Assembly (NCBI GenBank): GCA_027604185.1
Contig: JADGKB010000095.1
Coordinates: 1-55,684, forward strand
DNA length: 55,684 bases
Origin: Boothiomyces macroporosus
Lineage: Eukaryota > Chytridiomycota > Chytridiomycetes > Rhizophydiales > Terramycetaceae
Direction of reading: 5' to 3'
Shown here: positions 1 to 55,684 of the stretch, one piece after another
Layout of the letters: every line of letters starts with the position of its first letter
Position numbering within the stretch: the stretch's first letter is position 1
Translations under genes and position numbers: made by a program
Notes under the pieces: generated by a model
Seen by the model: only the letters and a program-made list of their open reading frames with translations
What the model was told of the DNA's origin: nothing
Databases searched by the model: none

Positions 1-244
1 GTTTTCATTGTTGAACAAATCCTCAGGAATCACTTCTTCCTCTGACTCGCTTGAGTCATATTCTGTCCATCAAATAACATGTACCGTCGCTAATTCCAAA
101 ATCAAGATTTAACTCTGGTGAATCTGGAAGATGACTGATTGGTGAACTGATCGATGAGCTTACTGAGTTGAGTGACTGTGTAGATTGATTTGGGGATTCG
201 GTCCTTCGTCTTTTGAAAAATGATAAAACACTGGATTGTCTCAT
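1..244 (-). CDS. N-terminus of a PIP-box DNA-repair protein, MSH6-like (partial)
   Basis: The reading frame starts with ATG at 244 and leaves the window at base 1. Residues 1-9 (MRQSSVLSFF) form a PCNA-interacting peptide of the Q-x-x-L-x-x-F-F type at the extreme N-terminus, followed by a basic KRRR cluster and a Ser/Thr/Pro-rich linker. A 22-nt intron at 63-84 (donor GTACATG, acceptor GGACAG) restores the frame into an acidic stretch (YDSSESEEEV). An N-terminal PIP box, basic patch, disordered linker and acidic Tyr-Asp-Ser block is the layout of MSH6, the MutS-alpha mismatch-recognition subunit. DNA ligase I and uracil-DNA glycosylase also carry N-terminal PIP boxes, and the catalytic part lies outside the window, so the family assignment is inference. 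It diverges from the gene at 399. Confidence 0.5.
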
Positions 245-398
245 AGCTGTTGTTGAAATCTGCAAGTTCAGAAAGTTGCGCACTAAATTAGAAAATCTGA
301 TTGGCTGTTGAAAAAAAGGTGGAAGAATTTTGATTGGCTGTTGAGCTCCCCGACCATGTTCAGTGGGCCAAAAGGGCTGGGACGAGTAAATTTTGTCA

Positions 399-1514
399 AT
401 GGAAGAAAAGTTGCTGAAAGAGCAAGAAGAATTGATACATACTTCGGTATTAAAGCACTCCAACTATGACTGTAGCTCGTTCAGCGAAAAGCAACTGGCG
501 TTTGCGAAAACGTGCTCCGCGATAAGGGAAATCATCAAGAACAAGCTGTACAGACTCCAATCGACCAACCTTGAACAGTATTTTCTCAAACGATTCAATG
601 TATCGAGAGCACAGGTAAGTTGGTTGTAATTCAAGGTGTATCGTTTGATGGATTGTGCAGCTGTACTAGATTGTCTTACTGATATCTCTCCTATTCCTCA
701 CAAGTACAGAATCTGCAAAGAGCTCAAGAAGAAAGCTTCTCTTGGCCCAGAAATACGTACATGTTGGGAAAAAGTATTGGCGTTCGGTACTTCAGAAGAG
801 CAATTGGACTCTTTTGACTTTGACCAGATTCCAAAAATATCCGCCAAAAGAAAGAGAAGCGAATCACACTTGTCCAAAACTGTAGTGCCTCAATCTCCTC
901 CTCACTCTCCTTCTTCTGCAGTTTCCGACTCGACAGCTTCATCTCCGCAAACGTTAGCCTCCTCTGTAAATGATATTCGGCACACTGATTGGAAAAGAAA
1001 CACTGAATCTTTAAACAAGCCAATGGGTATTAAGCCTGTTCGACTGCCAGGAATAGCCAGCTTCTCTCCTATCATTGATGAGTTTGAATATTGCCGGTCG
1101 TACCAGCTGAATTCATCAGAATCAGTACCACTCTGGAATACCCCACCTGGCAGTTCTTGCGCGTGCATTTATAAAGGCGATGTGCCAAGGTTATCTTTCA
1201 AGCAGTACTTGAATCTATCTAGTCCACCAGAATGCAATGTATGCAGCAAACCGCCTAAATCATCGCCATCTTATGAATACATCAAATCAGAGTTTGAAAA
1301 ATGCCAAGCAGCTCTATCTTCATTGGCCGAAATGGGGTATAAACTCACACCATTTATAAACGGCAGATGGGAAAAGAGTATAATATCTGAATGGAGAATA
1401 GTACCAATATCCCAACTACAAGAAGAAACCTACCCTACAAAGAGATTAAAGAAAACTTCGCTTTCAAGCAATAATTCCTTTGACAGTTTGATCCTCGCTG
1501 CGGGAATACTGTAA
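399..1514 (+). CDS. Hypothetical nuclear protein with N-terminal helix-turn-helix-like region
   Basis: Two exons, 399-614 and 636-1514, around a 21-nt intron (615-635); 364 aa. Unspliced reading hits TAA in the intron. I do not recognise the family. Residues 20-110 are predicted helical, with a segment (NVSRAQVYRLMDC) resembling a helix-turn-helix recognition region, then a helix with an IPHKYRICKEL-like motif. The middle is Ser/Pro-rich with an AKRKR nuclear-localisation-like cluster. The C-terminal third has scattered Cys (two CxC or CxxC pairs) and a hydrophobic tail (FDSLILAAGIL). The start was chosen as the first in-frame ATG, two codons after an in-frame TTG. A nuclear DNA-binding or transcription role is inference from the helical and basic segments only. 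Confidence 0.7.
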
Positions 1515-1539
1515 ATCGCTAAATAAATATTTGCTTGAT

Positions 1540-2193
1540 TTATTTTGCAGTAAGGGTGCCTTTAGTTGAAGGTACATCTTGACCACCAGTAAACGAAACA
1601 GCCTGGCGTAAAGCTAGAGCCATGGCTTTAAACGATGCTTCAGCCCTATCATTAAAATAGAATACTTGTGGTGATCGTTCTTTCCCTTTAACACATCCAC
1701 ATGCAATGTAAGTCCAGCATTACAAGCAAAAGATTCAAAAAAGTGTGGAATCATTTCACAGCTCAATTCGCCAATCTTTTCTCTTTTAAGATCAAGTTCA
1801 ATATGTGCACTTGGTCTGCCACTGATATCAACTACGCAGCGAGAGAGCGCTTCGTCTAATGGAGCGAATGCAGTTCCGAACCGCTGAATTCCTTTCATTC
1901 CTGGTGCTAGCTGCTGTAAAGCTTGAGAGAATGCCGTTCCTAGGGCCAATCCAGTATCTTCGGTAGTATGATGGTCATCAATATACAAATCGCCTTCGCA
2001 TTTCAAAGTCAAGGACCACTTGCTATGCTTTGCTAGTGCATGAATCATCTAAATTAAAATAAAATACATGGTCCAAAAACCCGATTCCTGTAGAAATTTG
2101 GATTTGCTGAGTGTGATATTCTGATGGCTGCAAGAGTGATAGTTTAATTGATACTTTGGTTTCCAGTGTGTTTCGTTCAACTGTTGCAGACAT
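1540..2193 (-). CDS. HIS3: Imidazoleglycerol-phosphate dehydratase (histidine biosynthesis)
   Basis: Three exons on the minus strand: 2193-2068, 2048-1666 and 1645-1540; 204 aa, close to the yeast enzyme. Introns are 19 nt (2049-2067) and 20 nt (1646-1665). Splicing restores the family signatures exactly: [17 protein letters not shown] across the first junction, [10 protein letters not shown], the catalytic-site LDEALSR and VDISGRP segments, GKNDHH, then [14 protein letters not shown] and VPSTKG at the end. The His and Glu ligands of the di-manganese centre (HHTTED, CEMIPHF, DHH) are all present. The enzyme dehydrates imidazoleglycerol phosphate to imidazoleacetol phosphate, the sixth step of cytosolic histidine synthesis. 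It appears complete and functional, which shows the organism is not an extreme auxotroph for histidine. Confidence 0.96.
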
Positions 2194-2604
2194 TTACGGA
2201 AAATTTAAATTTCTTGATTTCTTGATTTGGCGATGGAGATGGCCGATAATACAGTTGAGCATCAGAAAAAAGCTTTGTCTCTTTAGAGAGGAGGAAATAT
2301 CTGAGAAAATGCCCTTGACTTGCCCTGCCATCTGGGGAATGTTCTTTGGTAACTGCAAGCGATAATTTCACATTACTAGACTCTAACTTGCACAAACCCC
2401 AGTCACTGTGCACTTTGGACAGCGTATGTGGACAGAAATTTGGAACCTACAATCCATCCTAGACTAATTCAACCCCAATAGATATCCTGAATGGGTATGC
2501 ATGGTTGGGTTTTGATTGGAAGAAAGAGAATCCGAAAAAGGAAACGGTCGCACCAACCCAGGACCTGGTCATGAACCGCTCTTCTTCTTCAATATAGATT
2601 TTAG
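2194..2604 (+). other. Intergenic region between HIS3 and the LRR array
   Basis: About 410 bases between the divergent starts of HIS3 and the first LRR gene. Short open stretches occur on both strands (for example 2156-2365) but none has homology I recognise and none can be joined by a convincing short intron. It presumably holds two divergent promoters. An in-frame TAG directly precedes the LRR start at 2605. Confidence 0.5.
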
Positions 2605-4245
2605 ATGACTGACTGTCAAGTGTTCTACAACGTATTCCAGCAGCTCGGTGGAATCTATGCCCCTTTGACCAGTACCAACTGCTGCAAAGTTGACAAAACC
2701 ATGGTCCAATGCGACAGCCAAAACAATATCATTCAAATGTATATTTTGCTAATGTAGTTCTTTGCCAAATATGAATACCGGAGGAGCAAAGTTACCAGCA
2801 GAGATTGGGAATTTCAAGCATATTCAAGTGCTTGAAATGCCAAACTGTAAACTGTCTGGAAGTATACCAACTACGTTTGAACAACCAATTTGGGCCAAGC
2901 TGTACTGTTTATTAATATTAGGGACTTGAGTAACAATAATTTGACTGGAACTATCCCGGAATTACAAACAATGAACCAACCCAAAGTTTACTTTGATTTC
3001 AGAAACAATGATTTTGTGGGGCAAATTCCTGCCAATTTAACTAGACCTGGATTAGTTGTTGATAACACTAATAGTCCAGATCAATGTGCATTTGATTCAT
3101 TCATGTGTCCATACAAGAATGTAAAGCCATTTGGATGTAACAACACTGTATTTACCTGTTCTATTAAAGGAGCAAGTAGTAATTCTGCTTCTGCTCTATC
3201 AACTGGTTCAATTGCTGGTATTGGGCTTGGTGCTGCAGTGTTGCTTATTGGTTTTGTTGTGGGAGCTGTATGGTTTTTCAAAAGAGATGCCAAAGTCAGT
3301 GATATCAAGCCTAGAAGGGTACCTACCATGTATCACACTGAAATATCCAATCCACCACCAGCTGCCAATCCACAACAAGCACTTGTCCATCCTGGAACAT
3401 CCCTTTACAGCTCTCCAAACCCATCTTTAAACACATCAATGTCTCATTCCCCTGTAGGTTACGGCCAACTTCCTGATAATAGCACTATGCCTGGCTATAG
3501 TGCTTATTCTGAAGCGTATGTTCGTCACAGTCCTGGCAACATTAATCAAATTACTGAATCTGTTTCTCAAAATACTCCAGTTACGTATGCTGGATCTGCC
3601 CACACTCCGTCCATCAATTCAGGGTATGCTCCACCTTCGCTCTACTCTGCTCATCAATATACACCAGGAAATCTCACTAAAACTCCGTCTCCATCTGTTC
3701 AAACTCCACTCTCGACTGTTTCTTATAAAGCACCCTCTGCTTATTCTCAAACTTCCCATCAAGTAACTCCAGCAGCTCTAGCAAGCACAGTTTACAATCC
3801 AGATGACGAAGTGAATGAATCAGTCCAACGCTCAACTTCAATAATTCAAAAAGATCGATCTCCTAAATATATTGATTTGGATCAGCTACCATACCAAAAC
3901 CCAGCATCTAATCATAGTTATCAAACTGAAAGTAAACATCAGGTCTACCAATCAAAGCAATCACCATTAGAATACGTTTCAAAAGAAATTACCAATAGAT
4001 CATCCGCGATGCAATTTGCGAACCAATTACCGCTACCTATTCCAAAAACACCCGCTAATACTTACAACCCTGTATACTACGATCCTAGTCAAGGGTACGA
4101 GTATACCTTTGTCGATGCATCACAAATTCAAGCTTATGAACAGAGCCAGGTTGATCCTGCACTAGGTTATAGTTATGTTGACCCATCGCAGTTGTACTAT
4201 GTAGACCAAGATCAAGTTCAATACCAAGATGCAGAGCACTTTTAA
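2605..4245 (+). CDS. LRR receptor-like single-pass membrane protein 1
   Basis: Three exons (2605-2738, 2758-2901, 2922-4245) with introns of 19 and 20 nt; 533 aa. The N-terminus carries a plant-type LRR cap with the array's shared features (Cys then Phe near the start, a TNCC motif at about residue 28), then about three plant-type repeats (LSGSIPTTF, LDLSNNNLTGTIPEL, FRNNDFVGQIPANL) and a Cys-rich C-cap. A strong transmembrane helix lies near residues 200-222 (IAGIGLGAAVLLIGFVVGAVW) followed by basic residues, so the long Pro/Ser/Thr-rich tail of about 310 aa is probably cytoplasmic. The tail ends with Tyr-rich repeats of DPSQ-type. No kinase domain or RING is present. No signal peptide is visible and a stop codon immediately precedes the ATG. 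Likely a surface sensor; ligand unknown. Confidence 0.85.
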
Positions 4246-4436
4246 TAAAATGATCTTTTAAAACTCATCTTGATTGTAACCACATGCAATCATTCTAGGT
4301 ATTTGATCATAACAAGACTAACGCGTACCAACTGCCATCGAAATAAGTATAGAGTCGTACACGTTAATGTTCAAGTACGCATTGCAATTTTCTTGATTTT
4401 CCATTCCCTAAATTATTCAAAATAATCAAAAACTTT

Positions 4437-5378
4437 ATGCAATCACATTTAAAGATAAAAAACGAGCGAGTGAAATACAAGCAAAAGAAAATCAAAATAT
4501 TCCGCTCAAACAAGAAAATCAAAGCATTCGATCAGTTCTTGGAAATCCATCGGCAATACAGAGACTTTGTAAAGAAAAGTCTGGAAATTCCATTTGAATC
4601 ACAAGCACCAGTATTCAACTTTGAAGAATTCAGTGGGCTTGATTTTGTTTCATTGGCGCATAATCAATACCAAATAGAATATCTAGAGAATCATGCGGAA
4701 ATCAAACAAGATCAATTGGTTGGAAAAGAGTTCCGGAACGAAACAAAGGATTACCTAATAATTTACATTTCAATTCATGAATATCTTGTCCCACCAAATT
4801 GTAGATTCCGCTTGTGTGATTTCAGTCACTGGAATATTACTGAAAAGTATGATTTGATAGTGATGGATCCGCCATGGATAAACGCTAGTGTGAACCGTAG
4901 TAATTCTTATTCGGAATTAGATCACTACGAGCTGTTTAAAATCCCAATTAAAAAGATATTATCAAACAGTGGAACTTTGATAATTTGGGTTACAAACAAC
5001 AGCAAATATCACAGGTTTATCTTAAACAAACTGCTCCCTGGATATGGTCTTGAATGTACATCAAAATTAGTATGGATTAAAGTGGATTATGATGGAGAGT
5101 TGATTACAGATTTGGATAATCCACACAGAAAACCTTATGAAATTGCTTATATCTGTCAATTCCATTTACACAAGAAACCAATGCCGGAAATGATGAGTAT
5201 AACTAGTATCCCTACATTTCATTCTCGCAAGCCAGTGTTGAACATGTTTGAAGGCGAAAAGAAACTGGAGCTGTTTAGTCGGTGTTGTTTGGAAGGGTGG
5301 ACTTGTATAGGAAATGAAACACTAAAATTTAATAATACCTTGTATATCGATAATATATCTGAATTCAAGTATCTCTGA
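4437..5378 (+). CDS. MT-A70 family adenine N6-methyltransferase, METTL4-type
   Basis: Single exon, 313 aa. The core has the catalytic DPPW motif (YDLIVMDPPWINASV, about residue 140), followed by the METTL4-specific pattern of a serine/asparagine stretch, IWVTNN, WIKV, LDNPHRKPYE, HSRKP and LELFARC-like LELFSRC, then GWTCIGNE. This matches METTL4/DAMT-1 rather than METTL3 or METTL14. The N-terminal 60 residues are strongly basic (many Lys), suggesting nucleic-acid binding. Family members methylate adenine N6 in DNA or in U2 snRNA. Both substrates are of interest here because basal fungi are known for abundant 6mA and this genome depends on unusual splicing. The gene sits between LRR genes 1 and 2 and is unrelated to them. 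Confidence 0.85.
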   Translation: MQSHLKIKNERVKYKQKKIKIFRSNKKIKAFDQFLEIHRQYRDFVKKSLEIPFESQAPVFNFEEFSGLDFVSLAHNQYQIEYLENHAEIKQDQLVGKEFRNETKDYLIIYISIHEYLVPPNCRFRLCDFSHWNITEKYDLIVMDPPWINASVNRSNSYSELDHYELFKIPIKKILSNSGTLIIWVTNNSKYHRFILNKLLPGYGLECTSKLVWIKVDYDGELITDLDNPHRKPYEIAYICQFHLHKKPMPEMMSITSIPTFHSRKPVLNMFEGEKKLELFSRCCLEGWTCIGNETLKFNNTLYIDNISEFKYL

Positions 5379-5382
5379 TTAG

Positions 5383-5460
5383 TTGCAATATTCTACCACG
5401 TCAACATCTTGTAATATTCTACCGCGTCAACACCTTGTAATATTGCACAGTGTCAATATC
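5383..5460 (+). repeat. Three imperfect 26-bp tandem repeats
   Basis: Three consecutive 26-bp units begin at 5383, 5409 and 5435, each starting TTG(C/T)AATATT and containing a GTCAA core. Units 1 and 2 differ at a few positions; unit 3 is more diverged. They start five bases after the methyltransferase stop codon, so they lie in its 3' region. No known element is recognised. Confidence 0.75.
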
Positions 5461-5779
5461 TGGTACTACCGCTTTTGCAGATACTTTGATTCCAGTATGC
5501 TATTACAAACCTGGCTTGAGTTACTCCATGTGTACTTATATAAACAACAAAATTTGAAGCGACTTTTAAATTTCTGTAGGTATAATTTAAACACGCTAAA
5601 TTAGCTCGGAATCGGACCAATTCGCAGAAAGACGTAGCGATGAGCTGGGAGAACAAATATTACTTTGAAATACTAATCTCTAAACTCAGAGTCAATGCCG
5701 AGTTGATTCAGTTATGGGACCCGCGTTTCGGAGTATCAAAGAACTATAGAAGCGAAAAAAGTTGCACAAATACAATAGA

Positions 5780-7101
5780 ATGGATACCAGCAGCTCTCCA
5801 GATTGTCCCGTTTTTGCTCAGATATATCGCACATTAGGCGGAACAAGCACTCAGCTAAATAACACCAACTGCTGTTCAATATTCCCAAAGAATGTAATTT
5901 GTGCGAAACCAGCTAACGTTACAAATATATATCAAATGTACTTTTGCTCTAAACTAGTTCATTTAATTCAGATTCAATCCCTATTAAAGGCGGTGGGATA
6001 TCACCAGCGTTTGCAAAACTGCCCGCTTTGCAAACATTGCAATTGACTGATTTGGGATTGACTGGAGCTATTCCTCAGTTACCACAGACATTAACAGGGC
6101 TGTTGTTGAGTGGGAACCAGCTCACTGGGCCAATTCCAGACCTCTCATTTTATATCAATAACACACAGTTGGGAAATCCATACTTGAATTTGAAGAATAA
6201 TTTACTTGGAGGTGTTGCAATTCCTCCAAAATTGGCATCTATTGCTTGGAATGATAATGTCGGATGTCCATTTGCTACAAATATGGTATACTGCTGTTTA
6301 ATAGTAGTGCACTAATCAGACTGTTGTAAGCTGTCCTGGAGTTACGTTTACTTGTCAGTCAGATAAGAAAACTGCACCAACTGCTTCAAATGCACCATCT
6401 GCAACTCCTGCAACATCAGATACCATTTTGGGATTGGATAAAGCTGCAGCTTATGGAATCGGTGGTGGTATTGTTGCCATATTGGTATTAATCGTTGTAG
6501 CTGCTGTATTGTTTGTTGGAAGAGGGAAACATACTTCCCCAGTTGTGGTAAAGGATGGAAACGTTTTTGCTCAAAATACCCATGGAAACAACCAATCGCA
6601 AACACCTGCTAGTCAGTACAGCCAGCCTTATCAAGTACAAAATCAGCAGTATCAACCAACTCCTCAGACTCCTAGCCCAGTTGGATATGTAATGCCAAAT
6701 GGACAGCAATATGTAGTTCTTGGAGCAAACAGCCAACTTCAAACCAACAATCTATGCCTAAACTGCGGCTTTAACCCCAAAACCCACGTTGTTATTCCAT
6801 GTGGGCACGAAGTATTCTGTACTGCTTGTGCGGAACTAAACGCAGATGGAGGTGTCTGGTACATTCAAACTAACATAGTAACTTGTGTAATCAACGATTC
6901 TTGGTTGCTCAGCCAGCCAATCCGTCCCAAGTGCATCAAGAACCGCGAATTCAAGCTGGTCAGTCAGAAGTTTCCCAACCAAGAGTCTTTGCATCTCCGT
7001 CCCAAGTGTCTGATCATCCTCGGTTTACTCAGCTAGAGTCGAACGAGCCTAGATTTACCAGCCCGCAAGCTGATGACAATCTTCCTAGATTTAGATATTG
7101 A
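5780..7101 (+). CDS. LRR receptor-like membrane protein 2 with C-terminal RING finger
   Basis: Four exons (5780-5937, 5958-6285, 6308-6858, 6879-7101) with introns of 20, 22 and 20 nt; 419 aa. Order of parts: LRR N-cap with the TNCC motif, plant-type repeats (LGLTGAIPQL, LSGNQLTGPIPDL), Cys-rich C-cap (CPF, SCPG, FTC), transmembrane helix (GGGIVAILVLIVVAAVLFV, about residue 220), then a Pro/Gln-rich linker and a C3HC4 RING: CLN-C, CGH-EVFCTAC, then CNLC completed only after the last splice. Without that splice the last Cys pair is lost. The tail after the RING has repeated PR(F/I/V) motifs. A membrane-anchored E3 ubiquitin ligase with an LRR ectodomain is the natural reading; activity is inference. 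Confidence 0.87.
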
Positions 7102-7329
7102 ATAAAAGTGTGTTTCAAATAAACTGTGTATGGTCTTTGGAGTTACTTTGCCCAATAAGAATTTCACAAAGTAGAGATCGCTCAATCATTTCACATACGC
7201 AAAGAGTGGTGACCAAATTTTCTTTGAAAAATATGACTTTATGAACAAGCTGTATTTCCGACTTTTTCGTGTCCCAATTTAGAGATCCCTCGAACTCGGC
7301 AAAGAAAAAGATTTCATAATTTTGAGAAA

Positions 7330-8765
7330 ATGTCAACTACGGATGCGCCGGATTGTCCAGCATTTGCGACGATATATAGAGCACTAAATGGGCAGCTTAC
7401 GAATTTGACGGATTCTAACTGCTGTCAGTGGTCTCCAAGGAATGTCAATTGCTCAACTATCTTTGATAAAACATTGAAAAGGAACATATCCTCAATCAAC
7501 CAAATGTATTTACGTATTGACATAGTATTTTTACTGAAAAGGATATCGCAATTAAAGGCGGGTCAATGTCGCCGTTGCTGGGACAGTTAAAGTCCTTGAT
7601 AAGTTTACAATTACGGTTTCTTGGATTAACCGGGCAAATCCCACCTTTACCTCAACAATTTGCGGTTCTATTATTGGAAGGAAATCAATTAACAGGACCA
7701 GTTCCTGATTTTCAGTTTAATGTAACGAATGTTGCTGGTTTGACAAAGCCATATTTCAATATTACCAATAACCAATTCGGAAAGCAGCAAATACCAGCAA
7801 GTGTAGCTTCAGTTGATTTTAGTGTTGGTTTGTCTGGGTCTCAGTGTCCCTTTGATACAAATATGTGTGCTACAGGACCAGTTACGAGTTGCCCTGGAGT
7901 AGCTTTTACCTGCCAAGCAAACGCTGTACCAACTACTACTCTAACAACCCCTACTACTCCACCTACTCTAAATCAAGATCCTCAAGCCGATACAGTTTTT
8001 GGAATCAACAAGAACGTTGCGTATGGTGTTGCTGGAGGAATTGGAGCTCTCCTTATCCTTATTGTTGCAGCATTTGCTATACTTGGGGGACGCAAAAAGG
8101 TAAATCCCCCATCTGCCAAATCCCAATCTGTTGGAACAAACTTTCGTGCAAATAACTTATCAAATGCATACCCTGCCCCTATTTCGAATTCTGGAAGTCA
8201 TGTCGCAAGTAGTGTTTATCAGCAAAGTCCTCCACAACTGTTTTCTCCATCTGTGTTGCTTGGGCAGCCTGGTGCGCCAATCCAATTAACAGGAACTACA
8301 TCTAATGAATATCAATCTCCAGTTGCACAGCAGCCTCGTATTGCAAATTATGAATCGCCTAGTTTAGACTATTCGGCTCTTCCCACGTCAAATTACAGCA
8401 CACTACCATCATCCACATTAAACACCAACCCAACTTCAAATGTTCTATCGTCTTCCCATTCAAACATTCAACCGCTGAATTACAATTATCCTGGCATCAC
8501 CTCTCCTATAAATAGTAACTATCTGGCACCAAAGAAGGTATGCTTGAATTGCAATGGAAAGCCAATAACACATATAGTTAGTCCATGCAACCATGAAATA
8601 TTTTGTGCAGCTTGTGCTGAACTAAATGCTGAAGGCGGTATCTGGTAATTTAAAATTTATAATAGTAATCAATGCAATCAAAGGTTCTTTGTTGCACAAC
8701 CGATAAGATCACAAGCGATGGAAATACCAATTATCCCGACTTTATATTTCAAAGAGAGAAATTAG
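7330..8765 (+). CDS. LRR receptor-like membrane protein 3 with C-terminal RING finger
   Basis: Three exons (7330-7505, 7526-8644, 8666-8765) with introns of 20 and 21 nt; 464 aa. Closest relative of gene 2: the same N-cap (DCPAF, SNCC), repeats (FLGLTGQIPPL, LEGNQLTGPVPDF), Cys-rich cap, transmembrane helix (GGIGALLILIVAAFAILGG) and C3HC4 RING (CLNC, CNHEIFCAAC, CNQC). The last intron interrupts the RING at the same codon as in gene 2, so the intron predates their duplication. The intron that gene 2 has in the Cys-rich cap (6286-6307) is absent here. The tail after the RING is short. Probably a membrane RING ligase with an extracellular sensor domain. Confidence 0.87.
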
Positions 8766-9141
8766 AATATAAATAATATTAATGAATTTTCAAACTAATT
8801 CAATATTGAAAATCGGAATTCTTTGCTGATCTAATTCGTTAACAAATTTAAGCTGTCCCATATTCTGCTCCAAATATAGTTGAACAATCAAAAAGTTATG
8901 TTTCCAGCGTATTGAATCACATACATTCGGCAAATAGTAAATCAGATGAAAGCACCAAATACAGAGTAAAGTACAGACTGAATATTTCCTATCGCTTCAA
9001 CTCAATCTCTGATTTTCTCTCTTGTCTTTTCTGGCCAAACCTATCCATGTCCCACAAGAAAAAGACCTCTTTGACTGGTGAACCCGAGTTCCATTCGGCG
9101 ATTCCATTTATAGACCACTAAAGAAATTTTTGAAAAAGAAA
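8766..9141 (+). other. Intergenic region between LRR genes 3 and 4
   Basis: About 375 bases. The only open stretch is 8912-9121 (69 codons from a TTG-type start), with low-complexity composition and no recognisable homology. I see no gene here; it presumably contains the LRR4 promoter. Confidence 0.5.
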
Positions 9142-10511: not shown

Positions 10512-10626
10512 AGATACTTGTCTATTGTAGCCCTCATCCAACTCAAGCCACTTTTCTTTGCTTTCCGTTTGACTCGGCACTCTGTAGCCTTTTATGTGAG
10601 AGCGAGTTTCACCAAGTTTTGTAGAC

Positions 10627-29784: not shown

Positions 29785-29933
29785 TGTAGGAGTTTTGGAA
29801 AAATAAGGAAACCAAGTTTGTTTATTAAATTTCGCGTCTGACCACATCGGAGATCGCCACAAGCAACCCATCGCATGGTTCAATATTAGATATTAGGTCG
29901 TTTATAGGAGTGACACTACAATTAAATAGCTTC

Positions 29934-33996: not shown

Positions 33997-34328
33997 AATT
34001 TTTATGAATTTGTTTTTTAGATTGAAAAGTTTGTCTTTTGCTTCGGACTTTTTTAAACATTTTTTGGTTTAGGCAGCTTCAATGTACCACTGCGTAGTCT
34101 CGATTCGCATTGCACTTGTGTGCTTCTGCTGGGCTCTTAAACACGTAGAATCATACCTATCCACCTCAATATGATAAGAATGCAGAATCGCAGTCTTATG
34201 CAGCACATGTGGTACACTTATAATCTCTTAGTAGCTATGATAGCGGCAGTTCTTAATAGACCCAACTTTAAAAAATCTGTATCCTCCAACCATTTCTCTG
34301 AACTTTGAAAATTACGCGAAAATTGGAA
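33997..34328 (+). other. Intergenic region between KNL1 and the SWIB gene
   Basis: About 330 bases between divergent starts. No open frame, RNA gene or repeat recognised; presumably a bidirectional promoter. Confidence 0.4.
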
Positions 34329-45800: not shown

Positions 45801-46626
45801 TCAAGTTTGTCAAAGTTCGTATCAGAAGTATTCGTATTCCACAAATGGGTGATAAATTCGCATCCCGTCACGGACAAAAGGGTACAGTGGGCATTACCTA
45901 TCGTACTGAAGATATGCCATTCACTGCTGATGGTATCACCCCTGATTTGATTATTAATCCGCACGCCATTCCATCTCGTATGACTATCGGGCACTTGGTC
46001 GAGTGTTTGCTGTCCAAAGTGTCCACATTTACCGGTAATGAAGGTGATGCAACACCTTTCACTGATGTTACCGTAGAAGCTATTTCCCAAGCTTTGGCTG
46101 CCCAAGGCTATCAACGTCGTGGATTTGAAGTACTATACAATGGCCACACTGGTCGTAAACTTAATGCTCAAATTTATACCGGTCCTACCTATTATCAGCG
46201 TCTCAAGCACATGGTGGATGACAAGATTCACAGGTAATTGTTTCTAATATCAGTCGTGCTCGAGGGCCATTACAAATTTTAACCAGACAGCCTGTAGAAG
46301 GTAGATCAAGAGATGGTGGTCTCCGTTTCGGAGAGATGGAGCGTGATTGCATGATTTCCCACGGTGCTGCTAATTTCTTGAAGGTATTTTCATTTTAATT
46401 CCAGGAACGTTTATTCGATGCTTCTGATGCCTATCGTATCCATGTTTGTGACCTGTGTGGTTTAATGGCGGTCGCTCACTTGAAAAAGTCTGCATTTGAA
46501 TGCAGAGCTTGCAAGAACAAGACTCAAATATCACAAATCCATATTCCATACGCCTGCAAATTGCTATTCCAAGAATTGATGGCCATGAACATTGCTCCTA
46601 GATTGATGGTCAATCCACCTGCTTAA
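42867..46626 (+). CDS. RPB2: RNA polymerase II second-largest subunit
   Basis: Seven exons: 42867-42882, 42904-43109, 43130-43227, 43248-43503, 43526-46233, 46254-46383, 46405-46626; introns 21 (GC-AG), 20, 20, 22, 20 and 21 nt; 1211 aa, the normal length. The N-terminus reads [22 protein letters not shown] only if intron 1 is GC-AG. Recognised blocks: [99 protein letters not shown], the active-site loop [35 protein letters not shown] and the C-terminal zinc pairs CDLCG and CRAC. Conservation leaves little doubt about each junction. Confidence 0.97.
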
Positions 46627-46651
46627 TAGGGTTAATAAATATAGCATAAAT

Positions 46652-47745: not shown

Positions 47746-48255
47746 ATGGACCAACAGCAACAACAGCAGGCTCAGACAGACTTTCAACAACTACAGCAAA
47801 TGTATCCCCAATACCCAAACCTGGTATATACGCACTAATAAAGCTCGCTCAGCAGCCAATCAATAGTTCACAAATGTTACTTCCAACAGCTACAGACGAA
47901 CCGCTTTATGTAAATGCCAGACAATATCATCGGATACTTCGGCGCAGAGAAGCGAGAGCGAGATGGGAGCATGCTCATCAAACCAAACTGAATCAAAAAG
48001 TAAGAGGTTTTAATATAGGGGTATATCCATGAATCCAGACATAAACATGCAATGAGGAGACCAAGAGGACCTGGAGGTAGATTCCTTTCTTCTGCAGAAA
48101 TGGCTGCATTGAAAGCAACTGGGAGACTGAATGAAGATGGAACGATTGCCCAACCCCCAGAGAATACAACCGGTGTATTAAGCGAGCATGAAATTGTGCT
48201 TCAAAAGCTCAATGAAGAAATGAAAGCTGCTAAAGCAAAAGAGGCTAATAAATAG
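47746..48255 (+). CDS. HAP2: CCAAT-binding factor subunit NF-YA/HAP2
   Basis: Three exons (47746-47823, 47844-47999, 48019-48255), introns 20 and 19 nt; 156 aa. After a Gln-rich N-terminus comes the core: EPLYVNARQYHRILRRREAR (subunit association), then across the second splice GYIHESRHKHAMRRPRGPGG, the CCAAT DNA-binding part, followed by RF. The linker between the two is a little short. NF-YA/HAP2 with HAP3 and HAP5 binds CCAAT boxes; in yeast it drives respiratory genes. A C-terminal helical tail is Lys/Ala/Glu-rich. The stop at 48253-48255 is one base from the stop of the convergent WDR59 gene. Confidence 0.95.
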
Positions 48256-48256
48256 T

Positions 48257-51200
48257 TTAATATTTTTTACAATTGCAGGTACAACCAGTTGGGCACTCTT
48301 CATACTCTGTAAACCATTTCAACAAACACTTTGCATGTCCACCATGCTTGCAGACAAAGCAAAAAGTCGAAATTCCTTTACAGGGCAGTCGACATACCAC
48401 GCAACTGGCAAACTTCTTTCTAGTGCAGTTAGGACAGTTTGACAAGTTTGAACCGCACTTGCATGCCAAAGATATATCTAAGTTAACTCAATTATACTTA
48501 TTTGATCTCCAAGCTGACTACCAAATGTCTTTGTGGTTACAAGGAGCTGAGTGCGCTGTTCTAGCAATCCCAAACTATACAGGTAATTGGCATAACTCTG
48601 AATGTGGTAACTATACTTTACAAAGAGCTTGTTGGGAAGTAACGTTTTGTGATGAGAGTGTGAGTTGGATTTAGATGGCAAGGTTCTTGATATGGAAAAT
48701 TTCGTTTTGTTTGATGGTGATGGATTGGGAATCGATAGTGGGCGATGTAGCGAAGAAGCAAGCCTAGATTTCCTAGGTTTTGGATACTCTACAGAGATGG
48801 CTTTTAACTGCGAAGACTTTGTGGCAAACGCCAAGGAAGATGTCAACGAATTCATTTGGATTTTCTTGGACACTGGCTTGATTTCCGATTTGCTCAACTC
48901 TGACATAAACTAAACGTGAGAATGAGATTACTGTAGATCCAAAAAGAGACAATATCATTGAAATGGTTTGATAATCACCAATCTTGTCCAGGTATTCTAG
49001 GCTAACATTAGTAATAAATACATTTGACTCAAGATAATCTCCTCTTGCTTAGTTAATCCACTTTCAAAATTTAGAAACTCTAGAATAATATCAATCGTGT
49101 TCCATATCTGCACCAAGTCTGGTCTCCTGTAATCCCTTGATATCTGCTTGTTGTATTTGGAGATTGATTTTTTATCAGTGCCTTTGAAACTAGAATTAGA
49201 ATAAAGATACACATAGTTTTTGGCAAGATATTGGCTAATAGGTAAAATATACTCCATTTTGCGGACATAAACAAGCGTTCCGTATCCTATATGCTCCTCC
49301 GTTGGTTGAACAACTTGTAAATCGCTTGTAGCAATTTCTTTTGGAAATGAAGAATTAGAGTTTTGTAGTTTAGTGTCTACTGCGTGTGTATCAGACACAA
49401 TTCTTTTGTGCTTCTTCTGTGCGTTATTGGAGAGCATATTGAGAATATGTTCTGGAGGTTCCAGATCAAATGATTGTTTGACCATCTCATAGTCGCCATG
49501 TAGTGGCAAATTGCTATTTTCCATAAAGGGTATTCCCAATCCATCAGCATCTGGATCAAAAGATTGTTTAATAGGCTTTGCTCCTGGGAAATCACCTACA
49601 GAATTGCTTCTCTGGATTGGAATATTATGAGATCCTTCCGGAATTGCGGAAACAGTTGAATCAGGAATTGCAGGGTTTTGTGGAATGACCAAGGAAGATA
49701 GTCGTTGGATTTTATCTGGAATTGAGGGTCTTCTACTTTCTACAGAGATAATTTGAGTCGGTTTAGATAGTTTGATGTACTTGTACAATCGTGCGAGAAA
49801 ATCTGTTGCCGCTTCATTTTGTGGTTGGATTAGCGAAAGCTACATTAAAGACCTATTACCTTGGATCTGGAGAAAATCCGAGGTCTGTCATCATCCAGCT
49901 CTTCATCATCTAACCAGTAATCTAACTTGCGATCCTTTGGCTTATCATCCTTGAGTTTGATATCAATTTGGGCTTGTCCATCTAAATTGGACATACTATT
50001 CCCAATGTACATCCGTGGGTATTTAGATAATACAAAATTCCGATAGCTTTCGTATAGCGGATAATTTTTGGGTTGTGTTGCGTGTAACGTAGCATTTGGG
50101 GAATTTTGTTTTGGAGTGATACAGGTTTGAGAGAATTTCGATAACGACGGGTGAGGAATTGGAGAGAAAAAGTAAATTAAATCTCCAGAGGGTGAAAATC
50201 GTGCACCACACAAAACTGGGAACGGTACATTGTTATTTGTCTTTCCAAAAGTTTTCTTTGGTTTCACTCGCGGCCCTAGTGGCATCAGCTCGTCATCGTC
50301 ACCACTTGAGGACGAAGTGCTTAATCCTGCATCGATCAATGCCTCTGGTGTTGTGGATCTCTTGATGGCCGGCGCGTCTGGTTCATCTTCAGCGTCAGCG
50401 GTTGTATAGGGCACTGGTATTTCATTTTTTGTATTCCCTAGCAAGTAATTTACCAATTCGCTTATGCAAGGAATCTTTTTTTCTGCAAAGCTAGTTCCGA
50501 TTTGCTGAATTTTGTTTTTCAAGTAATTTCTGTTAATCATAGACATCATTGAAGTCTTTTTCAGTTCAAATACTGGACTTTCCTCTGGATACTTTTCCGG
50601 AAATGTCACGTCGACCTGGAAAAGCATATTTGGACTGGATTTGTTACCCGATATTTTCGATGGATCTAACGACCTGTCCAGTCTGATGGTGCACTGTCTA
50701 CTAATCCGCAATCTGGATTTGTCGATATATACGCCGGGGAATTTTAGAGAGACGTGCACGAGCTCCTTTTCTATTTGTAACATATCACTTGAAAAGTCTT
50801 CCTCAGATATTGGATACCCACTCGGCGAAACTGAAGCCCTATCTAAACTGGCATCGACTGATTCAGCAACATACAGCTGCGGTTCTGAATGAGTTCTTTT
50901 GGCTTGAAATAATGATTTGCCAAGCTTTCCCCTGATTTGAATTGGGTCTAGTAAAAATTGGTCTTCCAGCCTTTCTGGAGACACTGCTTTCACCAAATCG
51001 CTACTGATAGGCCAAAGTCTGAGATGCATATCTTTAGACCAAGTCACTAACTGGAAATCTTGATCTACTAATGTTAGTTGGATTTACCATGATGGAAAGA
51101 AGAATCTCGATTATACCTCCATACAAACTCTGTAGGGACATCTTTATGGCCTGTAAAAGTATACACTGGTGCTCTGGGGTTATTTCTATTCCACATATAC

Positions 51201-52073
51201 AAATTATTATCCTTTCTTTGTGGCATTGTAACTATTCCGTTTCCAAAAGGCTGGTGTTAGACAACTAATTACAGTATATCTTGCTCTCCAGCAGGGACTT
51301 GACGTTTCAATTGTTGCTTGACAGGTCCTGGATTGATCTATATGCCAAATCTGTGTTAAAATACATGTACTTTGACTAATTTATCCTGGCTGCAGGATAA
51401 TATTTCATTTTCCTGAGACATACTCCAGTCTATTCCATATATCTTTGTCATGTGTGCGGTTATTAACGTTACAGGTGCGGATCCTTTCTGAAATCAAGCA
51501 AAAGTTACTCTGGTGTCCCATATTCGAATATCAGTGTCGTGAGATGAAGCAAGCAGGTACTCATTCACCCGATTAAACTTTACTTGTGACGCTCCAGCTT
51601 TAATTAATTCAAATTATACCGTTCCATCCACAGAATGAATTTGACGGTTTATCTGACTTTGTTCTCAAGTCCCATAAATGCACATAGGCGTCATATGAAC
51701 AGGAGGCTAGAAGATCTGGAAAGAAAGGGCTCCAATGTATATCCGAAATTGCCCTTAAATGCTTGTTCAATACAAACTCCACAGGTGATGCTCCAGAATT
51801 ACATCTCTCTATATTCCAAACGAGAGCCTTTTGATTCGAGGTTGAAGCAATCCAATTGGATCTGGCCAAGTGCGGATTCCAATATACATCTGCAACATCC
51901 CACTTTGACACATGTTGAAACATCTTTGGCTGTTGAAATGGGTGTTCAAGGTCAATGATATACAATCCTCTTTTCGCAGCTAAAACCGCATCGGTTCCTA
52001 GAGGCGAAATACTTAGACTGGTTACTGGATGCTCGAATGGTACTGAAATCGACTGATATATAGTTGAATCCAT
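48257..52073 (-). CDS. WDR59: WDR59/SEA3 subunit of the GATOR2/SEACAT complex
   Basis: Ten exons on the minus strand: 52073-51620, 51597-51509, 51487-51371, 51350-51273, 51250-51088, 51067-49860, 49839-49022, 49001-48932, 48909-48498, 48477-48257; introns 22, 21, 20, 22, 20, 20, 20, 22 and 20 nt; 1209 aa. The WD40 propeller (about residues 1-330) has SDIHWSPFFPDLLASCSYDAY, HLWDLRTK, LASSHDTDIRIWDTR and FQLVTWSKDMHLRLW. An RWD domain follows (about 390-510, EKELVHVSLKFPG onward). The C-terminus carries the zinc cluster CKCGSNLSNCPNC, CVVCRLPCKGISTFCFVCKHGGH and CPTGCTCNC. WDR59 (yeast Sea3/Mtc5) regulates TORC1 amino-acid signalling at the vacuole or lysosome. It has the most introns in the window. 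Confidence 0.94.
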
Positions 52074-52417: not shown

Positions 52418-53584
52418 CTAATCCAATTCAGCCTCATCTATTTCCATCTTGTGCTCTACATCTGGGATAGCATTTATTCCATCGTGGGAAGCGGTTATTG
52501 GAGCATTATGGTCAATCTCAACTCTGTTTGCCAGTTCCAATCCAAAGAGTGGACGTGCCATCTGTGAGGATAAATCCGCCTCTAATTCTCCTAACGCCAA
52601 GCTTGAATTTGATTTCCTTAACAAGCTTAAATCTGGTTTTTCAAATAGGCTTTCCATTGAAACCGAAGCATCTAGGTTTGCTACTTGTCTACAAACTGGA
52701 CACGGAAACATGATTGATTCGCGGAGGATATGTTGAATGCATTTGTAGTGGAAGCAATGAGAGCATGGTGCTATGAATAGCCCCTGGAAAGGCCCAATTG
52801 CAGATATGCAAATACAACAGTCTACACTAGCATCACTTTTATGATCGTGGTCTTTCTGTGTAGAATATGGATTCGCTGCCATCAGCAACAACACCAACGC
52901 GTGCTTGAATCTGTTTAGGATTTGTAATTGCTTTCTAGCATGGGACTCTGAAGTTTCTAGCGAAACTTTAAGCTCGACTGCTTTGTATATTTCTGCATTA
53001 GGAAAATGTACCTTCCGTTCGTCCTTGATAGTCTACTCCGAGTTGAATTACGTCCCCTTCTTTTAATGGATATGGTCTAGATATCTTGTTGGCAGGGCTT
53101 AGGCGTAATTTATTCAAAAAGGTTCCTGAAGAACTGCCCGCATCTCTCAAATATATCTAATTAAGAAAAAACGAACCTGCCCTTCTTTTAACCATATTTC
53201 TGCATGCGATCGACTGACTACTTTGCTTTTGAACCATACTGGTTCTGTATTTTGATTGGTACTGGCTGGTCCACCCTTTTCTGGAGATGATGGAACTGAA
53301 TTTGCGAATGCAGGTGTCGAATCTGCACGCTGTCTTACAGTATCTTGTCCATCTTCAGTCCCTGCTAATTGTGCCAGCAACTTTTCTTGAGGAGACTTTA
53401 CCTGTCGTCCTATTTTAAGGGTGACTTTTTCTGGAATTACCCTTTCAATTATCTCCTTGTCAGTGATTAGTTTCAGTAGAATCGCTTGCTTATTGGTTTG
53501 AATTTCAGGGGTTGTAGTGTCGTTGGACATTGCGAGGGTAACTGCAAACAGCTCAGTTTGAATTACTAACGAGGATGATGTCAT
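52418..53584 (-). CDS. FHA-RING E3 ubiquitin ligase, DMA1/CHFR-like
   Basis: Three exons on the minus strand: 53584-53177, 53156-53012 and 52992-52418; introns 20 (GTTCG donor) and 19 nt; 375 aa. The FHA domain is rebuilt by splicing: LKIGRQV, FKSKVVSRSHAEIW, then IYLRDAGSSSGTFLN and YPLKEGDVIQLGVDY. A linker (EIYKAVELKVSLE) leads to a C3H2C3 RING at about residues 242-290: CCIC, CSHCFHYKCI, CPVC. This is the layout of fission yeast Dma1 and budding yeast Dma1/Dma2 (related to CHFR/RNF8), which delay mitotic exit by ubiquitinating septation and spindle factors. The C-terminus is acidic. An internal ATG (53530) is an alternative start. Confidence 0.9.
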
Positions 53585-54247
53585 GAGCGTGTCGATGTCG
53601 GCTGTCTTGAAGCATATCTAAATAATATTTCAAAATATGTAAAAATGAAGATAAAACATTTGTCTGTCAGTTGACCGGTTTAGTATCCAACAAGAAGACC
53701 GTGTATTTGTTACTTGATAATGTATAAAAATACCTGGAAACAACTTGGGAGCTCTCAAGAGCTGATCAAGAACAATCGAGCTATCGGAGTGTTGTTTTGA
53801 ATTTGACAACTTTAAAAATATGATAAATTACAGTTGGGCGTGAAGTCTTTGTTCAACGAGAAAGTGATATTCCCTAATTCCTTGTTAATGCAGTGTGAAT
53901 ACAATTTATTTGTGTCAAAAGGTTGAACACCGAGATTAGTCTACAAATCCAGGTCGCACTCAAGTTCTTTGGTATTATAATTATCGCAACCTACAATATC
54001 GGTCTATTCAAAATTAATGGGCTTTTAGTGCTCAAAGCTGGAATGTAGATCAAAAGTTTAAGGAAATCACTGAACGATTCTCGGTATATTCAGAAATACC
54101 GTCAAGTAAAAAATGCGCAGCAATAAAGCATGAATCGTATGTGTGCAAGTAGCCTACCATTCACTCTATTCTTAGTAATCATGAAACATTCAAAGTGCCA
54201 CCGCCACAGGAACAATTTAAACAGAAAATTTTGTATTCCTTCCACAA
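53585..54247 (+). other. Intergenic region with fragmented coding-like stretches
   Basis: About 660 bases. Several frames on the plus strand encode protein-like pieces: near 53785-53840 (LSECCFEFDNFKNMINYSWA), 53835-53925 (VKSLFNEKVIFPNSLLMQC), and 54040-54245 (WNVDQKFKEITERFSVYSEI, then HETFKVPPPQEQFKQKILYS). They cannot be joined into one frame with convincing introns. They are best read as the remains of an unidentified gene, cut at its 3' end by the dioxygenase sequence that begins at about 54247. Confidence 0.4.
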
Positions 54248-54875
54248 TGGTATTACAACGAAATTGAAGAAGATCCTAGGGCTCTTCACCAATTCACCCC
54301 AAACAGAGAAGTGACAAGGGAGCAATTGGATGCTCTCGGTGTACTTCAATGGCACTTTAACCCAGATACCGAAATGGATAAGGTGAACGAGTTGGCAAAC
54401 TTGAGAAAGTATGCCAATAGAGATGAAGTAATTCATTCTAATGTAGGTTGATATCTCCAAAGAAAAGCTTCCAAACTATGAAGACAAGCTAAAGATTTTC
54501 TTTACCGAGTAATCCAATACTAATTAGACACTTGCATGACGATGAAGAAATCCGATATATCCTTGGTGCTGTATTGCTAATATAGATGGATCCGGTTATT
54601 TCGATGTCCGAAGCAAAGATGACAAGTGGATCAGAATTGCGTGCAAGAAAGGCGATTTAATGGTTCTCCCAGCAGGTATTCTGTATTAACAAGAGGCGTG
54701 TACCACAGATTCATTCTTGATGAAACCAACTACTTGAAAGCAATGCGTTTGTTCAAGGAAGTAATTTTAGCATAAAACGTAGGATCCAAAGTGGACTCCA
54801 TTCAACCGCTCTGATGAAGCAACTGATACAATGCCAGTCAGAAAGAGCTACATTGCCTCTTTAACTGAGGAATAA
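54248..54875 (+). pseudogene. Acireductone dioxygenase copy 1, lacking a start codon
   Basis: Six exons (54248-54427, 54447-54508, 54528-54565, 54586-54675, 54696-54760, 54783-54875) with introns 19, 19, 20, 20 and 22 nt. The spliced product is an otherwise intact ARD: LQWHFNPDTEMDKVNEL, the metal-ligand segment [28 protein letters not shown] and RLFKEDPKWTPFNR. ARD oxidises acireductone in the methionine salvage pathway. The first codons MVxA found in copies 2 and 3 are missing; homology starts at WYYNE and the upstream in-frame sequence has TAA with no ATG. The only ATG at the junction (54247) is out of frame. It could be a truncated duplicate or use an unseen upstream exon. Confidence 0.75.
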
Positions 54876-54945
54876 AGAATTCATAATTTTCCGTTCGGGC
54901 GAAATGCGCCTATTTAGCTATCAGAAAATTTAGTATTTTTTGAAC

Positions 54946-55555
54946 ATGGTCACTGCATGGTATTATAAAGAAAGTGAAGCGGAAAACACTGAACCCCATC
55001 AATATAGCCCGAGTCAGCCAGTATCGAATGAAAAGCTGGATGAACTCGGTGTACTGCAATGGCACTTTGATCCTGATACGGAGTTTGATAAAGTGAATGA
55101 ACTGAGCGACAAAAGGGGATATACATTCAGAGATCAAGTGGATATTTCTAACCTAGATTGACATTCACAAGGACCGATTTCCAAATTACAAAGAAAAACT
55201 TGGAATATTTGCTACCGAGTACTCTACAGCTAATATAGACATTTGCATGACGATGAAGAAAGCAGATATGTTCTCGATGGTGCTGGGTTTTTTGATATCA
55301 GAGGAAAAGATGAAAAGTGGATCCGAATTCATGTTCAAAAAGGCGACTGGATCATTTTACCTGCTGGTGAGTTGAACCTAACCTAGGCGCCTATCATCGC
55401 TTATTCCTTGATCCATCCAAATACCTGAAACTACTGCGCTTGTTTAAAGAAGTACTTTGATTTAATTATAGGATCCAAAATGGACCGCGTTTAATCGCTC
55501 TCCAGAGTCTGACCAAATGCAAGTCAGGGCAGACTATGTAAAGTCGATTGCTTAA
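54946..55555 (+). CDS. ADI1: Acireductone dioxygenase (copy 2)
   Basis: Five exons (54946-55137, 55157-55218, 55239-55366, 55387-55451, 55472-55555) with introns 19, 20, 20 and 20 nt; 176 aa, the normal ARD length. Starts [10 protein letters not shown]. Contains [19 protein letters not shown], the cupin metal site [19 protein letters not shown] (two His, Glu), [15 protein letters not shown] (third His) and [14 protein letters not shown]. Catalyses the O2-dependent step that yields the methionine precursor 2-keto-4-methylthiobutyrate. The donor sites include GTGGA and GTGAG variants. It lacks the intron that copy 1 has in the YILDG segment. Complete and probably functional. Confidence 0.93.
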
Positions 55556-55630
55556 TAAATGCACTTTCTCTTTGCCAGATTACCTAATGATGGTGGCTTA
55601 ACCCTCCACCAGAAAAAAAGTTTACAAAAA

Positions 55631-55684
55631 ATGGTTCAAGCATGGTATTACAACGAAACTGAAGAAGATCCTAGGGCTCTTCAC
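55631..55684 (+). CDS. Acireductone dioxygenase copy 3 (cut by window end)
   Basis: ATG at 55631 opens MVQAWYYNETEEDPRALH before the window ends. From ATGGTATTACAACG onward it matches copy 1 with a single difference (GAAACT against GAAATT) over about 43 bases, so copies 1 and 3 are recent duplicates, while copy 2 between them is more diverged. Only the first 18 codons are visible. Confidence 0.85.
   Translation, partial: MVQAWYYNETEEDPRALH

Follow-up and report, generated by a model that had tools for sequence, protein, structure and literature searches.

Putative U2-type introns of about 20 nucleotides in genes of the chytrid fungus Boothiomyces macroporosus

In the accounts cited here, intron lengths are 15-16 nucleotides (nt) in the heterotrich Stentor coeruleus (PMC9505925), 18-21 nt in the nucleomorph of the chlorarachniophyte Bigelowiella natans, where a weak donor consensus is found beside intact U1 and U6 motifs (PMC6461891), 16-17 nt in mikrocytids (PMC10245619), about 24 nt in the median in Paramecium (PMC12862383, PMC5014332) and 23-25 nt in the type B introns of Trichomonas vaginalis (PMC12316389). 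In Cryptococcus neoformans the term 'ultrashort' denotes introns of less than 60 nt with a mean of 56 nt; few are shorter than 40 nt, and these are spliced poorly (PMC11913375). The matches listed, which leave out most of the subscription literature, contain no report of introns of about 20 nt from chytrids or of a fungus in which they form the main class, and the excerpted text of a survey of 644 fungal genomes (PMC8476143) contains no mention of them. Here, we analyze 55,684 nt of DNA from Boothiomyces macroporosus (Chytridiomycota, Rhizophydiales, Terramycetaceae), the whole stretch being referred to as the window, together with the assembly it belongs to (15.2 Mb in 216 contigs, the window being contig C95). 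The species is a free-living soil saprobe. Many of its genes are interrupted by segments which, to judge from the sequence, are very probably U2-type spliceosomal introns shrunk to about 19-22 nt and would rank with the shortest known, and Boothiomyces is a new lineage for an already known phenomenon.

Several traits are common to Boothiomyces and Stentor. As described there, the introns form one narrow length class, U1 ACUUACCU, U2 GUAGUA and U6 ACAGAGA are kept in both organisms, and the commonest Stentor intron start, GUAAUU, corresponds to the commonest donor hexamer of Boothiomyces (GTAATT, 26 of 248 introns). Also in both, the N-terminus of Isy1 is not conserved and that of Yju2 is kept. 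Unlike in Stentor, where the reported branch A is at position 10 without a strong motif, the introns considered here have 19-22 nt, a clear YTAAY and an A at +14 or +15; the MGGG plug of Cwc25, reported as lost in Stentor, is kept; and the density is about 2.3 introns per coding kb, whereas Stentor is described as having introns in only 18% of its genes. The nucleomorph of B. natans resembles Boothiomyces in its near-equal length range, its density of about 3 introns per kb and its kept U1, U2 and U6 recognition motifs. However, no obvious donor or branch motifs are reported for its introns and shortening is described for some of its small nuclear RNAs, whereas Boothiomyces keeps the motifs and full-length U1, U2 and U6 in a nuclear genome of 15.2 Mb.

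Very uniform ultrashort introns within a nuclear genome are a trait common to Boothiomyces and the mikrocytids. The latter are parasites for which 17-19 spliceosomal proteins and 224 predicted introns are given, and a comparable reduction is not seen in Boothiomyces on a partial list of parts. Paramecium, as described, is likewise rich in introns, and P. bursaria is reported to be without a donor consensus at +3 to +6; in Boothiomyces, by contrast, GTA is kept, and lengths divisible by three (3n) are not depleted nor stop codons enriched, although this test is biased. The type B introns of Trichomonas show a relaxed donor at +5 to +7, but only 24 such introns are reported there beside a longer class, whereas in Boothiomyces they form the main class. 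Cryptococcus is a fungus with introns termed ultrashort as well, yet their mean of 56 nt compares with a peak at about 20 nt in Boothiomyces.

A narrow length class and its support by protein alignments

Gene structures were predicted on both strands by an untrained gene finder that contained neither a splice-site nor a length model. It scored codon usage, recognised starts and stops, and could open gaps of 10-200 nt between the two members of a chosen dinucleotide pair, each gap costing the same. In a first sample of 105.7 kb, consisting of the window and five 10-kb stretches, 85 frame-restoring GT..AG gaps were obtained, 44 of them of 19-23 nt. Nine control pairs yielded 4-10 gaps at these lengths, with AT..AC (8), the one U12-type feature counted, at background. 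Among the ten pairs an excess was present for GT-AG only, and for this pair only at 19-23 nt. In a larger sample of 31 stretches (185.7 kb) GT-AG reached 96 gaps of 19-23 nt, compared to 9-18 in five control pairs. A count of GTA..CTNAY..AG strings of 19-23 nt, also made without training, gave 45 in the window versus about 16 in dinucleotide shuffles and peaked at that length.

A site model was then learned from the finder's own results, the branch motif being seeded with CTAAC-like words. Across the 31 stretches this trained model placed 89, 127, 69 and 30 GT-AG gaps at 19, 20, 21 and 22 nt, out of 331 at 15-30 nt. The window inventory consists of gaps agreed by two runs of the trained model with different gap limits and costs; as one site model was common to both, the runs are not independent. 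They agree on 82 gaps, 78 of which measure 19-23 nt (16, 36, 13, 12 and 1 at 19, 20, 21, 22 and 23 nt) and the remaining four 18, 26, 53 and 56 nt. A narrow class of not more than about 23 nt, as in the ultrashort-intron lineages, is therefore present with 78 of 82 gaps. An initial annotation of the window had counted 75 introns, 74 of them at 19-23 nt with a peak at 20; the recount is close to these figures, and the two examples it cited, GTATATTTTGCTAATGTAG at 2739-2757 and GTACTTTTGTACTCAACTAG at 29496-29515 on the minus strand, are exact.

The anatomy was determined on 334 introns of 17-26 nt, drawn from 388 trained-model gaps in the 31 stretches. Their donors begin with GTA in 87% and carry A at +4 in 53%, T at +5 in 44%, G at +5 in 17% and T at +6 in 55%; a +5 G, common to U2-type introns although not defining, is hence not the rule here. 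In 46% of cases the exon before the donor ends in G. YTAAY emerges as the best branch motif; its A occupies +14 or +15 in 243 of the 334 introns and, in 247, precedes the last base by 5 or 6 nt, so that both GT..AG boundaries and a branch motif close to the 3' end, as expected of U2-type introns, are found. These values refine the branch placement of the initial annotation, which had set the motif about 8-12 nt behind the donor, and its overall intron pattern proved too strict, since 44 of the 78 window introns fit it and starts are GTA in 72, GTG in four and GTT in two. The 99 complete gene models contain 248 short introns, equal to 2.33 per kb of coding sequence, with a median internal exon of 166 nt. 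All three phases are used (92, 90 and 66 introns). Neither a depletion of 3n lengths (70 of 248) nor an enrichment of stops (50% versus 56% and 61% in the other frames) was seen in these introns, a test with a bias, since 3n introns lacking a stop more easily escape detection. Also, no link between G at -1 and G at +5 was observed (19 of 110 versus 24 of 138).

Conserved proteins were then compared with those of relatives. For RPB2, window positions 43001-46650 were aligned, starting at QEIVD, to the sequences from Globomyces, Entophlyctis and Kappamyces, in a procedure that permitted gaps of any size at any place and had neither a splice-site nor a length model. With all three relatives, gaps of 20, 20, 22, 21, 20 and 21 nt were returned, lying within 1-3 nt of the GT..AG introns at 43110-43129, 43228-43247, 43504-43525, 43719-43739, 46234-46253 and 46384-46404 (plus strand). 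The alignments also contain a 6-nt coding difference and, with Kappamyces only, one of 27 nt. At the gene's 5' end, 27 and 42 nt had been called as gaps by the gene model; these were not trusted, and this part was cut off before aligning. An open reading frame at 43526-46237 (903 residues) is identical to the public B. macroporosus RPB2, and the public sequence P0001 carries the stopless 21-nt intron at 43719-43739 as seven residues that are extra to the three compared relatives. As a separate observation, a six-base coding insertion, an ATTGAT repeat, is located at 45638-45643 and is missing in the three relatives.

For WDR59 (minus strand), twelve introns were modelled, and gaps of the same length were returned for eight with Boothiomyces sp. 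JEL0866, three with Terramyces and five with Globomyces. Introns at 49840-49859 (20 nt) and 51598-51619 (22 nt) were returned by all three, those at 49190-49210 (21 nt), 51251-51272 (22 nt) and 51351-51370 (20 nt) by the congener and Globomyces, that at 51488-51508 (21 nt) by the congener and Terramyces, and those at 49002-49021 (20 nt, both runs) and 51068-51087 (20 nt) by the congener only. For conserved fungal genes, RPB2 and WDR59 among them, the claim that the segments behave as ultrashort spliceosomal introns is supported. Elsewhere in the genome, removal of 21, 21 and 22 nt from Prp8 results in a gapless match of 571 residues to human Prp8 (1207 bits).

Further junctions could be assessed in three window genes. 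The 20-nt intron at 1646-1665 and the 19-nt intron at 2049-2067 (minus strand, both runs) of the imidazoleglycerol-phosphate dehydratase gene HIS3 leave junctions without a gap against 6ezm, and the 20-nt intron of an ABC transporter gene (15722-15741, plus strand, both runs) has its predicted junction inside the Pfam ABC_tran match. Two acireductone dioxygenase genes stand in tandem on the plus strand at 54130-55555. In copy B, all four junctions align without a gap (introns 55138-55156, 19 nt; 55219-55238, 55367-55386 and 55452-55471, 20 nt each), and all four introns recur at identical positions and phases in copy A, at 54428-54446 and 54509-54527 (19 nt each), 54676-54695 (20 nt) and 54761-54782 (22 nt). 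Their letters are unrelated, and their lengths pair as 19/19, 19/20, 20/20 and 22/20 nt. Two more short introns (54250-54269 and 54566-54585, 20 nt each, both runs) occur in copy A, a minor trace of introns gained or lost; a gap of 59 nt in the same copy was not trusted.

The ultrashort introns might be one class only, with many longer ordinary introns missed by the models. Candidates of 26, 53 and 56 nt survive both runs, the Cwc25 and Isy1 gene models include less certain calls of 30, 31 and 46 nt, and the Isy1 protein P0121 of a congener would require a 49-nt first intron, provided that the DNA of the two does not differ. However, in the 105.7-kb sample GT-AG gaps of 24-40 and 41-80 nt number 10 and 8, compared to 9-23 and 17-25 in the controls; with no excess above 23 nt, a second, longer class is not demonstrated. 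Where alignment imposes intron gaps, in RPB2 and Prp8, these moreover all measure 20-22 nt, and we regard a large missed class as unlikely. Calls outside 19-23 nt were not trusted, because an 18-nt call in WDR59 (49235-49252) found no support from relatives and a 30-nt call (19776-19805), if removed, would take a Cys-His stretch with it. Trained-model gaps of more than 100 nt are, as recognised by eye, mostly bridges between neighbouring genes.

The splicing machinery and the proposed explanation

A U1 RNA was found in the genome with 68.8 bits, 0.7 below the Rfam cut-off of 69.5, and its 5' end, AUACUUACCUG, is canonical. U2 RNA is encoded by two genes, both with GUAGUA, and U6 RNA is present with ACAGAGA kept, so that all three RNAs have canonical recognition sequences. 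Among the proteins, SF1 is present with its helix-hairpin and KH domains, U2AF65, U1-70K, Prp8 and Yju2 are present and ordinary-looking, and Cwc25 retains a conserved MGGG plug. SF3A3, SF3B4, SF3B6, two U1A/U2B''-like proteins, RBM22 and Y14 were recognised by eye. The introns of the spliceosomal gene models themselves mostly have 17-24 nt, and Yju2 is intronless. No loss was seen among the inspected parts, U4, U5, LUC7, SMU1 and RED not having been searched for. The losses in U1, U2, SF1, U2AF and Prp8 for which inspection had been proposed do not appear: apart from U2AF35, which was not recognised among the RRM loci, these components are in place. Identical gene models were noticed at two places, L023 and L024 (both on C20) and L046 and L047 (C49 and C100); these twins represent either a recent duplication or uncollapsed assembly, gene models rather than DNA having been compared.

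A reduced or divergent spliceosome without U1-side factors, as suggested at first, could also remove the introns. A +5 G in only 17% of the donors would fit such a loss, as would the failure to find U1C. Against this, a U1 RNA with a canonical 5' end, U1-70K and, by eye, the two U1A/U2B''-like proteins are present, and the U1C search may have failed because an intron splits the short finger of 38 residues. Such a reduction therefore appears improbable to us.

That the segments are retained in the mRNA and that the ribosome skips or frame-shifts across them would restore the proteins equally well. Translational bypassing elements occur in yeast mitochondria, and a stopless 21-nt segment is treated as coding in the public RPB2 P0001. 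The GTA..YTAAY..AG structure with its motif at a fixed position, the early splicing factors encoded in the genome, the use of all three phases and the lack of an excess in nine other boundary pairs argue strongly against ribosome skipping, which we consider highly unlikely. Assembly or sequencing indels or pseudogenes would account for the raw observation of frame breaks in conserved genes but are hardly credible, as errors would not bear GT..AG ends, a length of 19-22 nt and a branch motif, as the gaps recur at the same positions and phases in two paralogues, and as eight of the twelve modelled segments are missing from the public WDR59 of JEL0866, another isolate.

Shrunken U2-type introns hence remain as by far the most convincing explanation. 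It is based on the length peak, the GTA..AG ends, the YTAAY at a fixed place, the restored conserved proteins and the canonical U1, U2 and U6 and splicing proteins in the genome. Several points weigh against it. The introns are known here from DNA sequence and protein comparison alone, and the proteins of the relatives are mostly public annotation predictions. Self-training fills the control pairs too, with 262-382 gaps at 15-30 nt and flat lengths; the trained counts therefore prove little, and the case is instead built on the excess seen without training, on the length peak and on the protein alignments. The strength of YTAAY is partly built in, because CTAAC-like words served as the seed for training. 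The alignment of RPB2 to relatives does not extend to the 5' end of the gene. In WDR59, four of the twelve calls were returned by none of the three relatives: the 18-nt one, two model-only introns in the 3' part that the alignment did not reproduce (48376-48397, 22 nt, and 48478-48497, 20 nt) and one at 48910-48931 (22 nt), for which the alignment shows no gap of this length. The WDR59 alignments furthermore hold other gaps, of 12, 17, 120 and 297 nt with Terramyces and of 5-28 nt with Globomyces. U1C was not found by a profile search of the genome or by a protein query, the empty protein query being uninformative, and neither U2AF35 nor RBM17 could be identified in the set of RRM loci that was read. 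The sole zf-U1 match, L049, is SF3A3 by eye and was rejected as U1C.

Five of the 78 window candidates are stopless and a multiple of three in length, so that frame alone cannot settle these. Two are backed by relatives, 43719-43739 in RPB2 and 49190-49210 in WDR59. Two others weigh on the same side as the points above and are undecided, namely the 21-nt candidates at 35768-35788 (plus strand) in a gene recognised by eye as ALG12-like and at 41859-41879 (minus strand) in a protein kinase gene, both agreed by the two runs. So does the fifth, at 4900-4920 (plus strand), which was rejected as an intron: it is a coding stretch of an MT-A70 gene, whose Pfam match scores 85.8 bits with the segment and 74.7 bits without it. 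With one candidate coding and two undecided, 75 of the 78 stand as predicted introns. Most were recognised by frame and motif alone, and 20 have a homologue aligned at the junction (six in RPB2, eight in WDR59, two in HIS3 and four in acireductone dioxygenase).

In shrunken U2-type introns of this kind, an ordinary spliceosome would cut the segments out. U1 and then U6 pair with the donor, and U2 pairs with the branch site. Three short signals would be read in a rigid frame, the donor at +1 to +6, the branch at about +11 to +16 and the AG 5-6 nt later. As computed from the anatomy, the donor and branch RNA helices could both fit, about 4 nt apart, and a polypyrimidine tract would have no room. 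To judge from this geometry, the bulky U1 and U2 particles are unlikely to be bound next to each other, and the two would probably act by sequential hand-over on the rigid 20-nt unit.

The N-terminus of Isy1 may be of relevance to this geometry. In Stentor it is not conserved, a change suggested to keep it from colliding with a tight lariat (PMC9505925). Isy1 usually starts with M-A/S-R-N-x-E-K-A...L-x-R-F, and 67 of 120 Isy1 homologues among the matches listed have the M[AS]RN start; the others mostly show MARS- or MARD-like words or an internal Met, and a few are apparently mis-annotated. The start motif is kept in Fimicolochytrium, Thoreauomyces and Homolaphlyctis, the last identified by its JGI code. 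In Boothiomyces sp. JEL0838 the protein starts with MAPKTLAQKQEANILKKY and in Globomyces sp. JEL0801 with MANNQKEKQKSVVHRF, both being eroded. When compared to solved structures, the congener's public Isy1 aligned only from residue 29-38, in eight of eight Isy1 sequences, while Isy1 of Fimicolochytrium, used as a control, aligned from residue 1 in seven of nine. In the three forward frames of the B. macroporosus Isy1 locus, the sole match to a motif word is RNGEK, which lies in another frame within the coding region. The first exon is uncertain, as three splicings of L044:1468-1516 fit: 22 nt, two introns of 20 nt around a one-base exon, or 49 nt. This start intron may be nested (twin) or alternatively spliced, an observation in its own right. 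Of the double change proposed, though not defining, for Stentor, Isy1 is altered here and the Cwc25 plug is kept. The relaxed donor with its lost +5 G and the eroded Isy1 N-terminus beside a tight lariat of 14-15 nt may be the adaptations of this system. The view of the initial annotation that the introns imply an adapted spliceosome is weakened by the canonical U1, U2 and U6 and the ordinary-looking splicing proteins.

Further introns and genes of the window

The remaining window introns were all agreed by both runs, and gene names marked 'by eye' were recognised visually. At the left end, an intron of 22 nt (63-84, minus strand) lies in a gene truncated by the window end, and one of 21 nt (615-635, plus strand) would introduce a stop if retained. 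On the plus strand, LRR-membrane genes (by eye) contain GTATATTTTGCTAATGTAG (19 nt) at 2739-2757 and introns of 20 nt at 2902-2921 and 9583-9602; an LRR-RING gene (by eye) has introns at 5938-5957 (20 nt), 6286-6307 (22 nt), 6859-6878 (20 nt) and 7506-7525 (20 nt). Five LRR-membrane gene models follow each other in a row at 2605-12018, two of them with a RING-like C-terminus (all by eye). An Nse1-like gene with an SMC_Nse1 domain carries introns at 19442-19460 (19 nt) and 19731-19750 (20 nt, both plus strand), followed by an intron at 20948-20967 (20 nt, plus strand) and four on the minus strand at 21481-21502 (22 nt), 21904-21924 (21 nt, with a stop if retained), 22237-22256 and 22705-22724 (20 nt each). 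The SPO11-like gene (plus strand, Spo11 domains) is interrupted at 23189-23207 and 23402-23420 (19 nt each), 23702-23721 and 23893-23912 (20 nt each) and 24083-24103 (21 nt, with a stop if retained).

At 28151-29784, a KilA-N domain and a RING finger are joined in one gene. Its introns, on the minus strand, are located at 28436-28456 (21 nt, with a stop if retained), 28746-28768 (23 nt), 29334-29352 (19 nt) and 29496-29515 (GTACTTTTGTACTCAACTAG, 20 nt). The adjacent KNL1/Spc7-like kinetochore gene (29825-34060, minus strand) has Pfam Spc7 and Knl1_RWD_C domains and eight introns, at 29916-29937 (22 nt), 30210-30229 (20 nt), 30365-30385 and 30798-30818 (21 nt each, with a stop if retained), 31258-31277 (20 nt), 33438-33456 (19 nt), 33741-33762 and 33972-33993 (22 nt each). 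It contains seven RDS[IVL]xxFF-like repeats where other KNL1 proteins carry MELT repeats. Plus-strand introns of 19 nt follow in a SWIB-like gene (34671-34689, by eye) and the ALG12-like gene (36440-36458), and a membrane protein gene (by eye) has three at 37362-37380 (19 nt), 37451-37470 and 37871-37890 (20 nt each). The protein kinase gene (minus strand, Pkinase domain) contains introns at 42007-42026 and 42243-42262 (20 nt each) and 42388-42406 (19 nt), the HAP2/NF-YA gene (plus strand, CBFB_NFYA domain) at 47824-47843 (20 nt) and 48000-48018 (19 nt), and a gene with FHA and RING domains (minus strand) at 52993-53011 (19 nt) and 53157-53176 (20 nt).

Occurrence in relatives and implications

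The RPB2 sequences P0045 and P0046, which come from the sources lgn and ena and are probably metagenomic, have Kappamyces as their closest relative among the matches listed, with 88.8% identity. Near their start both read LPWIILVSYNINSGKRGNAV, P0045 beginning at its MPW, where relatives have another run of 12 letters. Read-through of a 22-nt intron, GTAAGTTATAATATTAATTCAG, in the wrong frame gives exactly LPWIILVSYNINSGKRGNAV, the codons having been chosen by us. The frame-shifted stretch thus looks like a retained 22-nt intron, as far as these letters indicate, at a site that is intronless in Boothiomyces. The erosion of Isy1, in addition, is common to Boothiomyces and Globomyces. Ultrashort introns could tentatively be common to a larger part of the Rhizophydiales, with lariats of 14-15 nt tolerated by almost unchanged parts through retraction of the Isy1 N-terminus from the active site, convergent with Stentor; we regard this as possible but rather doubtful.

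For annotation, such introns are a hazard, as illustrated by the stopless 3n intron that appears as seven extra residues in the public RPB2 P0001. If the 75 introns in 55.7 kb are extrapolated to 15.2 Mb, there may be perhaps 20,000 of them genome-wide. The minimal size of an intron, and whether U1 and U2 need to be bound to it at the same time, have so far been approached in ciliates, in the relic nuclei of algae and in parasites. A fungus with such introns and an apparently ordinary spliceosome would make this question testable beside the well-studied fungal spliceosomes.

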